Of a stretch of DNA of 64,000 bases, positions 52,334-54,732 are shown one piece after another. Made by a program: the position numbers and the translations under genes. The notes under the pieces were generated by a model, which was given only the letters and a program-made list of their open reading frames with translations, made no database searches and was not told where the DNA came from. Origin of the DNA: Leisingera sp. ANG-Vp (lineage in GTDB: Bacteria > Pseudomonadota > Alphaproteobacteria > Rhodobacterales > Rhodobacteraceae); contig NZ_JWLD01000055.1 in the NCBI RefSeq assembly GCF_000813725.1, positions 1 to 64,000 of the forward strand, written 5' to 3'. Every line of letters begins with the position of its first letter. Position 1 is the first letter of the stretch.

Positions 52334-52837
52334 TTAAGCGCCCCCAGCGCCGTCTAGGAATTCCATCGGATCGAAGTCCTCGGGCAGGTCTTCCATCCAT
52401 TCTTCGGCCTTGGCCAGCTCTTCTTCCTCGTAGGTCTCGGGCTTCCAGATCTGGAAGGTGTCGCCCGCGGCGATGAAGAAGGCCTCGGCGTCCAGCTCGA
52501 TTTTCTGGCGCAGCTTGGCGGGAAGAACCAGGCGGCCGGTCTCGTCGACATTGGTCGGGAAGGACTGGCCGTGGAACATCCGCTGCAGCATCTTGCGCTG
52601 CATCGAGCCGCGCGGGAGCTGGTCGATCTTGGCGTCGACCTCCTCGATCGCCTCGATAGTATAGCATTCCAGGAAGTTGCGGCGCTTGTCGCCGTAGACG
52701 ATCACCAGTTCCGGGTTCTGGCCCGGCTGCCAGTTGGGATCGGCAGCCTCGAGCACACGGCGAAAGGAGGCCGGAATCGAGACCCGCCCCTTTGTGTCCA
52801 CCTTATGGTGGCTTTCGCCTCTGAACCTGCGGCCCAA
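52334..52837 (-). CDS. mraZ: Transcriptional regulator MraZ
   Basis: MraZ is a double AbrB-like DNA-binding protein that forms rings and represses its own dcw operon by binding TGGGN repeats. The 167-residue protein has two related domains, the first with 'FRGESHHKVDTKGRVSIPASFRRVL' and the second with 'VDETGRLVLPAKLRQKIELDAEAFFIAAGDTFQIW'. The start is TTG 52837, preceded by AAAGGACGG, because no ATG or GTG gives the conserved N-terminus. The acidic C-terminal tail 'WMEDLPEDFDPMEFLD' extends the usual length. Confidence 0.95.
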   Translation of the reverse strand: MGRRFRGESHHKVDTKGRVSIPASFRRVLEAADPNWQPGQNPELVIVYGDKRRNFLECYTIEAIEEVDAKIDQLPRGSMQRKMLQRMFHGQSFPTNVDETGRLVLPAKLRQKIELDAEAFFIAAGDTFQIWKPETYEEEELAKAEEWMEDLPEDFDPMEFLDGAGGA

Positions 52838-52880
52838 GTTACCGTCCTTTTCGCGTGTCCCTCGCGTTAATCCGTCCCCC

Positions 52881-52926
52881 AGAATGAAAAGGGGCGGGTT
52901 GATCTGCTGCCACTGATCAACCCGCC
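52881..52926 (-). terminator. Attenuator-type terminator in the mraZ leader
   Basis: A perfect 12-bp stem (52893-52904 with 52915-52926, 10-nt loop) is followed on the minus strand by CCTTTTCATTCT, 55 nt before the mraZ start codon. No protein gene precedes it, so it most likely ends the leader RNA prematurely. Confidence 0.8.
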
Positions 52927-53097
52927 GCCTTGGCCCGCTTTGCGGGATGTCCGACTGCGCGCGCCACCTGGGGGGATGTCTGCTCGCCCGCGCGCCGGAT
53001 CTCTTTGTTCGATGAAAGCGAAGGCCTGTATGAAACCTGCTCTTTTAGTTTGGCTTTGGGGTCGTTTGGCGCCCCGTCCCTCGTCTCATTCGATGTA
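52881..53097 (-). ncRNA. upsM: UpsM-like leader sRNA upstream of mraZ
   Basis: In Rhodobacter sphaeroides the dcw cluster has an extended 5' leader from which the abundant sRNA UpsM (about 200 nt) arises by premature termination and RNase E processing. The same layout is seen here: a TAGTAT -10-like hexamer at 53104-53109 predicts a start near 53097, about 260 nt before mraZ, and the terminator would release an RNA of about 215 nt. Homology is inferred from position, size and architecture; I could not align the sequences. A 93-residue frame inside is not considered coding. Confidence 0.65.
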
Positions 53098-53100
53098 GTA

Positions 53101-53133
53101 GGGATACTATGGGAATTGATGGTCCTGCAACTG
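53101..53133 (-). promoter_or_regulatory. Candidate dcw promoter overlapped by three MraZ-type boxes
   Basis: The minus-strand -10-like TAGTAT (53104-53109) has a weak -35 at TTGCAG (53125-53130, spacer 15) or CAGTTG (53128-53133, spacer 18). On the plus strand GGGA (53101), TGGGA (53110) and TGGTC (53120) are spaced exactly 10 bp apart, the MraZ-box arrangement. MraZ bound here would cover the -10 and spacer. Confidence 0.5.
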
Positions 53134-53151
53134 TTTTCTGCGGGAACCCGC

Positions 53152-53181
53152 CGAATCCTTGACAGAGATTCCAAGGATTCG
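53152..53181. promoter_or_regulatory. Perfect 10-bp inverted repeat within a GANTC cluster
   Basis: CGAATCCTTG (53152-53161) and CAAGGATTCG (53172-53181) are perfect inverted repeats with a 10-bp centre that itself contains GATTC. Both arms contain a GANTC methylation site. It lies about 40-80 bp upstream of the predicted dcw transcription start, a typical activator or repressor position. Confidence 0.45.
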
Positions 53182-53409
53182 AGAGGGATTCGGGGCAAAA
53201 TCAGGGCAAAAATCCGGACTTGTTGTGATCACCTTCAGCCCAAACACTAGATATAGAGGCGAGTTGCACCTGCAATTTTTTTCCCATAGTTTCCCGCGAT
53301 TCCGCCGAAAGACTCACCAAACCGGCCCAAGTTCCCCTTACGTTCACATGGTGAACTAAAGCCCCCCTTTGGAAATACCCGCTAAAACCGTTTCAACACC
53401 CGGCGATTC
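53153..53409. promoter_or_regulatory. Cluster of seven GANTC (CcrM-type) sites
   Basis: GANTC occurs at 53153, 53167, 53176, 53187, 53298, 53311 and 53405. About one is expected by chance in 260 bp at this GC content. In alphaproteobacteria CcrM methylates GANTC, and GcrA or other regulators use methylated sites in promoters of cell-cycle genes. Confidence 0.45.
53282..53296 (-). promoter_or_regulatory. Isolated pair of MraZ-type boxes
   Basis: On the minus strand TGGGA (53282-53286) and CGGGA (53292-53296) are spaced 10 bp apart, between the tandem array and the GANTC cluster. They may be a remnant of, or satellite to, the array. Confidence 0.35.
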
Positions 53410-53449
53410 GCAACTTCAAGAGGTGGGGTGCGGGAATTGGGCCATAATT

Positions 53450-53587
53450 TCCCATGGCACCCATGAATTCCCAGCCGTCCCGTGAATTCCCAGGCCTCCC
53501 ATGCAATCCCGGATATCCCATAAGGTCCCGCGCCAGGCCGCGGGTCCCATCCGGTCCCAAAACAAGCCGCCCTTCCCATCGGCGCCC
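53450..53587 (-). repeat. Degenerate 19-bp tandem array with TGGGA/CGGGA every 9-10 bp
   Basis: Six consecutive 19-bp units start at 53450, 53469, 53488, 53507, 53526 and 53545; each begins with TCCCA or TCCCG on the plus strand. A second CCC box lies 9-10 bp into most units. Further boxes at 53574 and 53584 keep the phase. In total about 13 boxes occupy 138 bp. The box and spacing resemble MraZ operator boxes on the minus strand. The array starts just after the mrp terminator and is 600 bp upstream of mraZ. No plausible coding explanation was found. Confidence 0.75.
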
Positions 53588-53607
53588 ATCCGCAGAGCCC
53601 CGGAACA

Positions 53608-53632
53608 GAAAAAGCCCGCCAAAGCGGCGGGC
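53608..53632 (-). terminator. Rho-independent terminator of mrp
   Basis: GCCCGCC (53614-53620) and GGCGGGC (53626-53632) form a 7-bp stem. On the minus strand it is followed by TTTTTCTGTT, 36 bp after the mrp stop. Confidence 0.88.
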
Positions 53633-53667
53633 CTTCACACATATTATATAGGGGGTGCCGGGAGACG

Positions 53668-54732
53668 TCAGGCCATGCCGCCCTTAACCAATCCCTCGGC
53701 GATGCGGGCATAAGCCTGCGCCATGGCGCCCTCGCCCGCTGCAACGGGTGTGCCGCTGTCGCCGGCCAGCCGGGTCTCCAGATCAATCGGCAAGGCGCCC
53801 AGGAGCGGCAGGCCCAGCGTTTCAGCCTCAGCCGCAACGCCGCCATGGCCGAAGATGTGATGCTCGCCGCCGCAATCTGGACAGGTGAAGAAGGACATGT
53901 TTTCGATCAGCCCCAGCACCGGGGTTTTCAGGGTGTTGAACATATCCAGCGCCTTGCGCGCATCCAAGAGCGCCACATCCTGCGGGGTAGAGACCACGAT
54001 GGCGCCGGAAAGCTCGGCCTTGGTGCACAGCGTCAGCTGCACATCGCCGGTGCCGGGCGGCAGATCGACAAGCAGCACATCCAGCTCGCCCCAGTTCACC
54101 TGCCCCAGCATTTGCTGCAGCGCGCCCATCAGCATCGGGCCGCGCCAGACCACAGCCTTGGCGTCATCGACCATGAAGCCGATCGACATCAGGGTGACAC
54201 CATGAGCGTGCAGCGGCTCGATGATTTTGCCATCCGGGCTGGCCGGGCGGCCCTTGGCGCCCATCATGCGGGGCTGGGAGGGGCCGTAGATATCAGCGTC
54301 CAGCAAGCCGACCTTGCGGCCCTGTTTCGCCAGCGCCACCGCCAGGTTGGAAGAAATGGTGGACTTCCCCACCCCGCCCTTGCCCGAGCCGATGGCCAGG
54401 ATGCGCTTGACGCCGGACGGTTTCAGCGGTTCGGCCTGAGGTTTCGGGTGCCCGCCGACCTTGAGGCTGGGCGCAGGCTGCTGCGGGGCATGGGCAGTGA
54501 GCGCGGCGGAGACGGTTTCAACGCCGTCCAGCGACAGGACTGCCGCTTCGGCGGCCTTGCGCAGGGGCTCCATCAGCTTGGCGATCTCGGGGCTGGGCGC
54601 TTCGATCACAAAGCTTACTTTGCCGCCTTCGATGCGCAGCGCCCGCAGCATGTCGCGCGACACCAGGGTGCCGCCATCCGGCAGGGCCAGCCGCTCCAGT
54701 GCCGCGTGTATCTGTTCCTTGGTGGCCGCCAT
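53668..54732 (-). CDS. mrp: Mrp/NBP35 family P-loop ATPase (ApbC-like)
   Basis: Mrp/ApbC proteins carry and transfer iron-sulfur clusters. The 354-residue protein has an N-terminal MIP18-like (DUF59) domain (about residues 1-90) and a deviant Walker A 'IGSGKGGVGKSTISSNLAVAL', 'GLLDADIYGPSQPRM', and 'NMSFFTCPDCGGEHHIFG' with the C-x-x-C that binds the bridging [4Fe-4S] cluster. ATG 54732 follows GGAGAGCAGTC; the longer frame upstream is rejected. It ends at a strong terminator before the mraZ regulatory region. Confidence 0.94.
   Translation of the reverse strand: MAATKEQIHAALERLALPDGGTLVSRDMLRALRIEGGKVSFVIEAPSPEIAKLMEPLRKAAEAAVLSLDGVETVSAALTAHAPQQPAPSLKVGGHPKPQAEPLKPSGVKRILAIGSGKGGVGKSTISSNLAVALAKQGRKVGLLDADIYGPSQPRMMGAKGRPASPDGKIIEPLHAHGVTLMSIGFMVDDAKAVVWRGPMLMGALQQMLGQVNWGELDVLLVDLPPGTGDVQLTLCTKAELSGAIVVSTPQDVALLDARKALDMFNTLKTPVLGLIENMSFFTCPDCGGEHHIFGHGGVAAEAETLGLPLLGALPIDLETRLAGDSGTPVAAGEGAMAQAYARIAEGLVKGGMA

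Follow-up and report, generated by a model that had tools for sequence, protein, structure and literature searches.

A conserved array of paired [C/T]GGG boxes far upstream of mraZ in Leisingera is a candidate distal operator for MraZ

MraZ is among the most conserved of bacterial regulators and its oligomer is ring-shaped, and the simple promoter sites described for it give little reason for such a ring. In the 64-kb stretch of Leisingera DNA analysed here (the window), a long run of short [C/T]GGGN boxes lies between an mrp/apbC-like gene and mraZ, at least 613 bp upstream of the mraZ start. The question raised by this locus is what such an array might do at that distance. The array is conserved, carries a motif in common with the promoter region, and stands at a fixed or stepped distance from it.

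Thirteen boxes were counted on the mraZ-sense (minus) strand at 53450-53588, in agreement with the roughly 13 estimated in an earlier, sequence-only reading; the count omits one out-of-phase AGGGC at 53569. Read 5′ to 3′ on this strand, the box intervals are 10, 19, 10, 19, 10, 9, 10, 9, 10, 9, 10 and 9 bp, from which it follows that the 19-bp unit consists of a pair of boxes 10 bp apart and a 9-bp step. Nine of the 13 boxes form an unbroken 10/9/10/9 chain, with starts in plus-strand numbering at 53450, 53459, 53469, 53478, 53488, 53497, 53507, 53516 and 53526, and all six unit starts claimed previously (53450, 53469, 53488, 53507, 53526 and 53545) read TCCC[A/G] on the plus strand. The longest chain of [CT]GGG[AT] boxes at 9/10-bp spacing in the window has nine members on the minus strand and two on the plus strand. 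Among 150 order-1 random sequences of 64 kb, the longest chain on either strand was two boxes (148 times) or three (twice), and on resampling the composition of the array itself 20,000 times it never exceeded four. Tandem Repeats Finder reports only 2.3 copies with 84% matches, so the units have diverged outside the boxes. A coding explanation was rejected, as 19 is not a multiple of three and the overlapping ORFs are those of a mechanical list.

Table 1. Features of the mrp-mraZ region in the window (positions in plus-strand numbering)
Feature	Position	Strand	Basis or remark
mraZ; TTG start in ORF list	52334..52837	-	NCBIfam and Pfam
Hairpin with 12-bp stem, then CCTTTT; putative UpsM-type terminator of the mraZ 5′ leader	52893..52926	-	Reading of the sequence; leader type from PMC5089854 (part covered)
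Promoter-site boxes AGGGA-N5-TGGGA-N5-TGGTC, over the putative UpsM/mraZ promoter	53100..53124	+	
TATATCTAGTG element, possible second promoter	53245..53255	-	41 bp from mid pair, 20/20 congeners
Mid pair CGGGA-N5-TGGGA	53282..53296	-	157-159 bp from last array pair, 20/20 congeners
Last, half-degenerate array pair TGGGA-N5-TGGCC with flanks	53439..53456	-	Weight-matrix match no. 2 of the 64-kb window
Array core, nine [C/T]GGG[A/T] boxes, spacing 10/9/10/9/10/9/10/9	53450..53530	-	Box positions; kept in congeners
Outer box pair TGGGA-N5-TGGGA, 10 bp	53545..53559	-	
Outermost box pair TGGGC-N5-TGGGA, 10 bp	53574..53588	-	
mrp/apbC-like gene, upstream neighbour on the strand of mraZ	53668..54732	-	Pfam ParA/NUBPL, 321 bits

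The mraZ product scores 227.3 bits against the NCBIfam equivalog NF001476 (cut-off 162) and 62.9 against Pfam MraZ (cut-off 23). The start of the upstream gene was chosen inside a longer ORF, and its product reaches 297 bits against NCBIfam ApbC, under the cut-off of 348. An Rfam search of 52800-53720 returned nothing at the gathering score, and a scan for sigma-70 promoters and terminators gave one promoter-like site and zero terminators. Two box groups nearer mraZ, the mid pair and the trio on the opposite strand, had been passed over in the sequence-only reading. The promoter of UpsM and mraZ was positioned by analogy with R. sphaeroides, in which the sRNA UpsM, carried by the mraZ leader of this family, starts 268 nt upstream of mraZ (PMC5089854). 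The locus is the same in that system: the mraZ 5′ leader is long and has a terminator, and a single promoter serves both UpsM and the dcw cluster. A search of the main text of that paper found no mention of TGGG, MraZ binding, binding sites, autoregulation or repression, and neither boxes nor an array are described in the parts covered.

Twenty-one congeners were examined and mraZ was found in 20 of these, G017 being without a match. The array occupies the same place in all 20, several boxes having decayed in some; the unbroken chains, 3 to 9 boxes long, have their end between -615 and -621 relative to mraZ, and the last counted array box lies at -594 to -624 or nearby. Across the array core the mean pairwise identity is 0.851 in box columns and 0.586 in spacers (Mann-Whitney p 1.9e-6, for columns that come from related genomes and are not independent), and between two species the spacer identity falls to 33%. 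When the box mask is shifted, the contrast is maximal at zero, slightly smaller with a shift of +/-1, and has turned round by -3 and +2. Of 178 aligned box positions, 167 retain GGG, preceded in every instance by a pyrimidine (167/167) and followed by A in 131 of the 167; strict [CT]GGGA boxes number 4 to 8 of 9 per core. The single indel in the aligned core of the 20 rows is a deletion of exactly 19 bp. The alignment across relatives that had been proposed as a check therefore finds the boxes and their spacing kept in place while the bases between them drift, and the refutation from related genomes foreseen with it, a lack of such conservation, did not occur. One locus (L192; JAHVJD010000007.1) is titled Nocardioides marinus and has a Leisingera-like mraZ region with 90% MraZ identity; the label looks wrong.

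Which protein might read these boxes was approached through a weight matrix trained on 60 promoter-site pairs of other genera and scanned on both strands of the window. Eight of its top 11 matches lie upstream of mraZ, namely five array pairs in 19-bp steps (53439, 53458, 53477, 53496 and 53515), the mid pair (53281) and the promoter boxes (53098 and 53108). As the training pairs were chosen by the same box pattern, only the agreement of spacer and flank is independent. In other genera AWTCA is favoured in the 10-bp spacer of distal and promoter sites, and A[A/T]T[T/C]A in that of mid sites; in the Leisingera mid pair the spacer is mostly AACTA. Since a matrix from other genera's promoter boxes ranks the array pairs high, one protein should read both, and this single reader is probably MraZ; on this comparison, and with MraZ itself present and clearly classified, its binding to the array is likely. 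The resemblance to MraZ boxes claimed at the outset is thus upheld, in that the array boxes resemble the mraZ promoter boxes of other genera.

In the window genome (5.15 Mb) a strict three-box pattern has six matches, five overlapping in the array and one at C133:61383, and a looser version has 12, five of them in the array. The extended motif YGGGAWWTCAYGGG occurs exactly twice, both times in the array; with one mismatch it is found in 29 more places, 28 of these outside the array, compared with 6 in total for a reversed-pattern control. The 28 outside copies, in excess of the control, may be other MraZ targets or may reflect composition.

The 2014 work of Eraso is said to place an MraZ operator at the E. 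coli mraZ promoter. In M. gallisepticum the operator is (AAAGTGKN3)3 and in B. cenocepacia it comprises four 7-nt repeats with 3-nt spacers, both of period 10 in the parts of the sources covered (PMC7761207, PMC5282649). The region upstream of mraZ in the window resembles these in its short direct-repeat boxes with a period of about 10 bp and a TGGG/GTG-type core, positioned upstream of mraZ in 20/20 congeners, and the mid and promoter sites fit the known type directly. The array differs in having 13 boxes that alternate at 10 and 9 bp, in lying approximately 158 bp further upstream than the mid pair, and in its helical register with the other sites. It neither overlaps nor abuts the promoter, the presumed promoter boxes being about 332 bp away, and is for this reason a distal variant and not a classical promoter operator. 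The 9-bp step also deviates; it is undocumented for MraZ in the portions of the literature covered, in which the described sites have period 10. By the repeat formula given in the part covered, one further site bound by the MraZ of M. gallisepticum has period 11, which makes a one-base change of step plausible.

Distal sites are found in other genera. One genome per genus was taken, and an mraZ match was obtained in 199 of 199 Rhodobacteraceae genera searched; 151 upstream regions were retained, a set that leans to the better MraZ matches, after leaving out three genera with mraZ partial or at a contig end (G063, G190 and G108) and 45 that scored lower. On the mraZ strand between -900 and -300, these 151 genera (the window genome included) hold 144 box pairs at 10 bp, 33 at 19 bp and 19 at 29 bp, against 0.8, 0.6 and 0.7 expected. 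Chains of at least four boxes occur in 15 of the 151 genera and in 2 of 3020 shuffled regions, and chains of at least three in 41 genera and 53 shuffled regions; 809 of the 3020 shuffled regions have a chain of at least two, so two-box chains are common by chance. Leaving the window genome aside, -900 to -540 contains a chain of at least two boxes in 90 of 150 genera and of at least three in 24, and in the other 60 genera no distal chain of even two boxes was found there under this loose box definition. The 10/9/10 spacing recurs in eight genera besides Leisingera, at about -570 to -690. Successive 10/10 steps make up 5 of 39 cases at distal sites, compared with 29 of 31 at promoter sites (Fisher p 3e-12) and 12 of 21 at mid sites (6e-4), and a 9-bp step never follows another in the box chains of the genus survey. 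Long chains are present in Roseobacter sp. SK209-2-6 (7 boxes), Phaeobacter sp. CECT 5382 (6), a Phaeobacter metagenome bin (11) and Roseovarius nubinhibens ISM (7 and 4). The array is most readily viewed as the longest version of a distal site shared with other Rhodobacteraceae genera. Two UpsM-leader motifs occur in 108 and 102 of the 151 genera. Strict runs of [C/T]GGGA with 9-bp steps were also seen in other genomes away from the listed mraZ places, for example at G141:C2:25850-25935 and G093:C8:2-114.

The distances between the three sites are closely kept within Leisingera. In 20/20 congeners, 157-159 bp separate the last array pair from the mid pair, and 173-174 bp separate the latter from the promoter boxes. 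The stretch between array and mid pair measures 143-145 bp with a pairwise identity of 42-90% (median 57%), and the number of gapped columns per pairwise comparison has a median of 1 and never exceeds 2; in the mraZ leader (about 265 bp, median identity 94%) the median is 3 and the maximum 7.

From one genus to another the distance between distal and mid sites varies stepwise, with clusters near 112-115, 122-126, 133-137, 143-148, 155-158 and 165-168 bp and beyond. Circular statistics, for which three of the 151 regions shorter than 800 bp were left out, give R 0.68 at 10.8 bp for 65 genera (permutation mean 0.15). Over eight selections R ranges from 0.64 to 0.80, against permutation means of 0.15-0.36, with a best period of 10.55-11.0 bp; the p-values are all at the permutation floor (0.0002-0.0005), and the permutation null ignores phylogeny. 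The choice of a pair within one cluster could mimic 10-bp steps, but the signal survives with isolated pairs (R 0.80, 19 genera) and in single-pair genera only (R 0.77, 28 genera). In the 25 tabulated Ruegeria loci, the distance from the mid pair to the best distal pair is 113 bp (2 loci), 122-123 bp (2), 132-135 bp (16) or 143-146 bp (5). The distance table drew on 49 of the 80 named loci; among those tabulated, L193, L194 and L254 have no matrix-supported mid pair, and the best matrix scores at -490 to -410 in L193 and L194, which have long arrays, are -8 and -5.

Phasing from distal site to promoter is weaker (R 0.42, best period 10.3, n=82), and part of the mid-to-promoter signal comes from distances gathered near 172 bp; for the latter a regular expression matched only 2 genera across the family and the matrix was used instead. 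No phasing was seen from the mid pair to the start codon (R 0.16, n=95), from the promoter boxes to the start codon (R 0.16, n=126) or from TATATNT to the leader (R 0.07, n=43). The GAATC motif, meant as a control, was itself phased relative to the mid pair (R 0.51, n=39); the phasing is therefore a property of the region in which further proteins may take part, and is weaker evidence for MraZ alone. Stepped distances of this kind are the pattern of a face-of-helix constraint, and argue for contact between proteins on the sites.

We judge it somewhat better than an even chance that the array is a distal MraZ operator which joins the promoter region through DNA looping or wrapping. MraZ, as the presumed binder, would here regulate its own division and cell-wall cluster. 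The operator unit would be the 10-bp box pair, stacked every 19 bp in Leisingera, on which MraZ oligomers would load cooperatively; the same assembly might then contact the mid pair and the promoter boxes across looped or wrapped DNA, a proposal made because all three sites are in helical register. Repression of the mraZ/UpsM promoter would thereby be strengthened and the response to MraZ level sharpened, and the opposite-strand boxes may block the promoter, given that they sit over its presumed position. More tentatively, and at rather less than even odds, MraZ may form a higher-order looped or nucleosome-like complex over some 490 bp, in which the distal, mid and promoter sites of many Rhodobacteraceae genera keep helical phase and the long 10/9 arrays of Leisingera and some relatives serve as the nucleation site; a GANTC methylation site inside the loop could add a cell-cycle response.

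The array might instead soak up MraZ and buffer its free level without contacting the promoter, as the sequence-only reading had also suggested. Many boxes do lie together away from the promoter, in their longest form in one genus, and the long-array relatives L193 and L194 are without a mid pair by the matrix. A decoy, however, needs no fixed distance, yet that from array to mid pair hardly varies among the congeners and changes between genera in helical steps; pure titration is on this account a weaker fit than a looping or wrapping operator, and we consider it unlikely. A fixed distance is equally unnecessary if array-bound MraZ is mainly a roadblock to transcription leaking in from mrp. 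In its favour, mrp and a hairpin with a T-run lie immediately upstream of the array, on the strand of mraZ, but the spacing towards mrp varies (156-358 bp with a crude pattern), and a roadblock appears improbable. That the boxes are read by something other than MraZ, such as a cell-cycle or envelope regulator, is slightly less likely still than titration. GANTC sites cluster between the distal and mid sites, and NtrX and, without its motif, CenR have been reported upstream of mraZ in R. sphaeroides, but in the parts of these papers covered the motifs are GCA-N9-TGC for NtrX and TGA-N8-TGA for CenR, neither being YGGGA (PMC7240162, PMC9275681). Both were rejected as box readers on this difference. 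The presumed mraZ promoter in other genera has the same type of box, and every genus searched has an mraZ match, which also speaks against a different reader.

Neutral local tandem duplication would account for the 19-bp units and for the 2.3 copies called by Tandem Repeats Finder; boxes and spacers do not drift alike, however, and the array is present in all 20 congeners with its 10/9/10 spacing in eight other genera. This explanation, which we find scarcely credible, was rejected on the conservation pattern. The G-runs might also form a G-quadruplex on the mraZ-sense strand, for which the usual rule asks for four G3 tracts and loops no longer than 7 bases, and the 9/10 spacing of the core, giving loops of 6 and 7 bases, supplies such tracts. 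The constraint nevertheless extends beyond the G tracts to the preceding pyrimidine, the following A and the spacer preference, and the mid and promoter sites of the window have just two or three boxes, so that a quadruplex is very improbable.

MraZ boxes as such are already known, and we rate the distal, pair-built 10/9 array in helical register as a new variant. No distal array of this build in register with two further sites was met with in the open-licence literature searched, as far as its texts were covered. With the looping operators of lac, ara and gal, the effect depends on the helical phase between remote operators, and the present sites may work alike; the proteins differ and the evidence here is comparative alone. 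RemA, an unrelated protein, offers a parallel in its octameric ring, which is believed to wrap repetitive upstream DNA, with the difference that its sites are AT-rich and poorly conserved (PMC8481266, part covered). If our preferred reading of a distal operator is true, a long array in register with the promoter region gives the MraZ ring a testable job, that of joining remote boxes, and in a large bacterial family the division cluster would be controlled through DNA architecture alongside the UpsM leader.

Several other elements lie among these sites. A direct repeat GAAC-N7-GAAC, which we take to be the LexA-type motif of alphaproteobacteria, is located at 53331-53345 on the minus strand, between the array and the mid pair. 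Of the 20 congeners 16 have it, and among the 151 genera it occurs in 14 on this strand and 7 on the other, where about 1 is expected; an SOS input into the division cluster is possible. GANTC sites, presumably of the CcrM/GcrA type, occur in the window at 53405-53409 and at about 53153-53191. Across the 151 genera, -600 to -500 contains 246 of these against about 61 expected; Leisingera has 1-4 further GANTC at approximately -370 to -318, a stretch without clear excess family-wide. The TATATNTNGTG-like element 41 bp from the mid pair, present in 20 of 20 congeners with a TACAT variant allowed and in 34 of 151 genera compared with 0.15 expected, may be a second promoter upstream of UpsM. For the S. 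aureus mraZ promoter a G-quadruplex has been proposed, and the G-rich tracts there might overlap MraZ boxes (PMC11796246, part covered).
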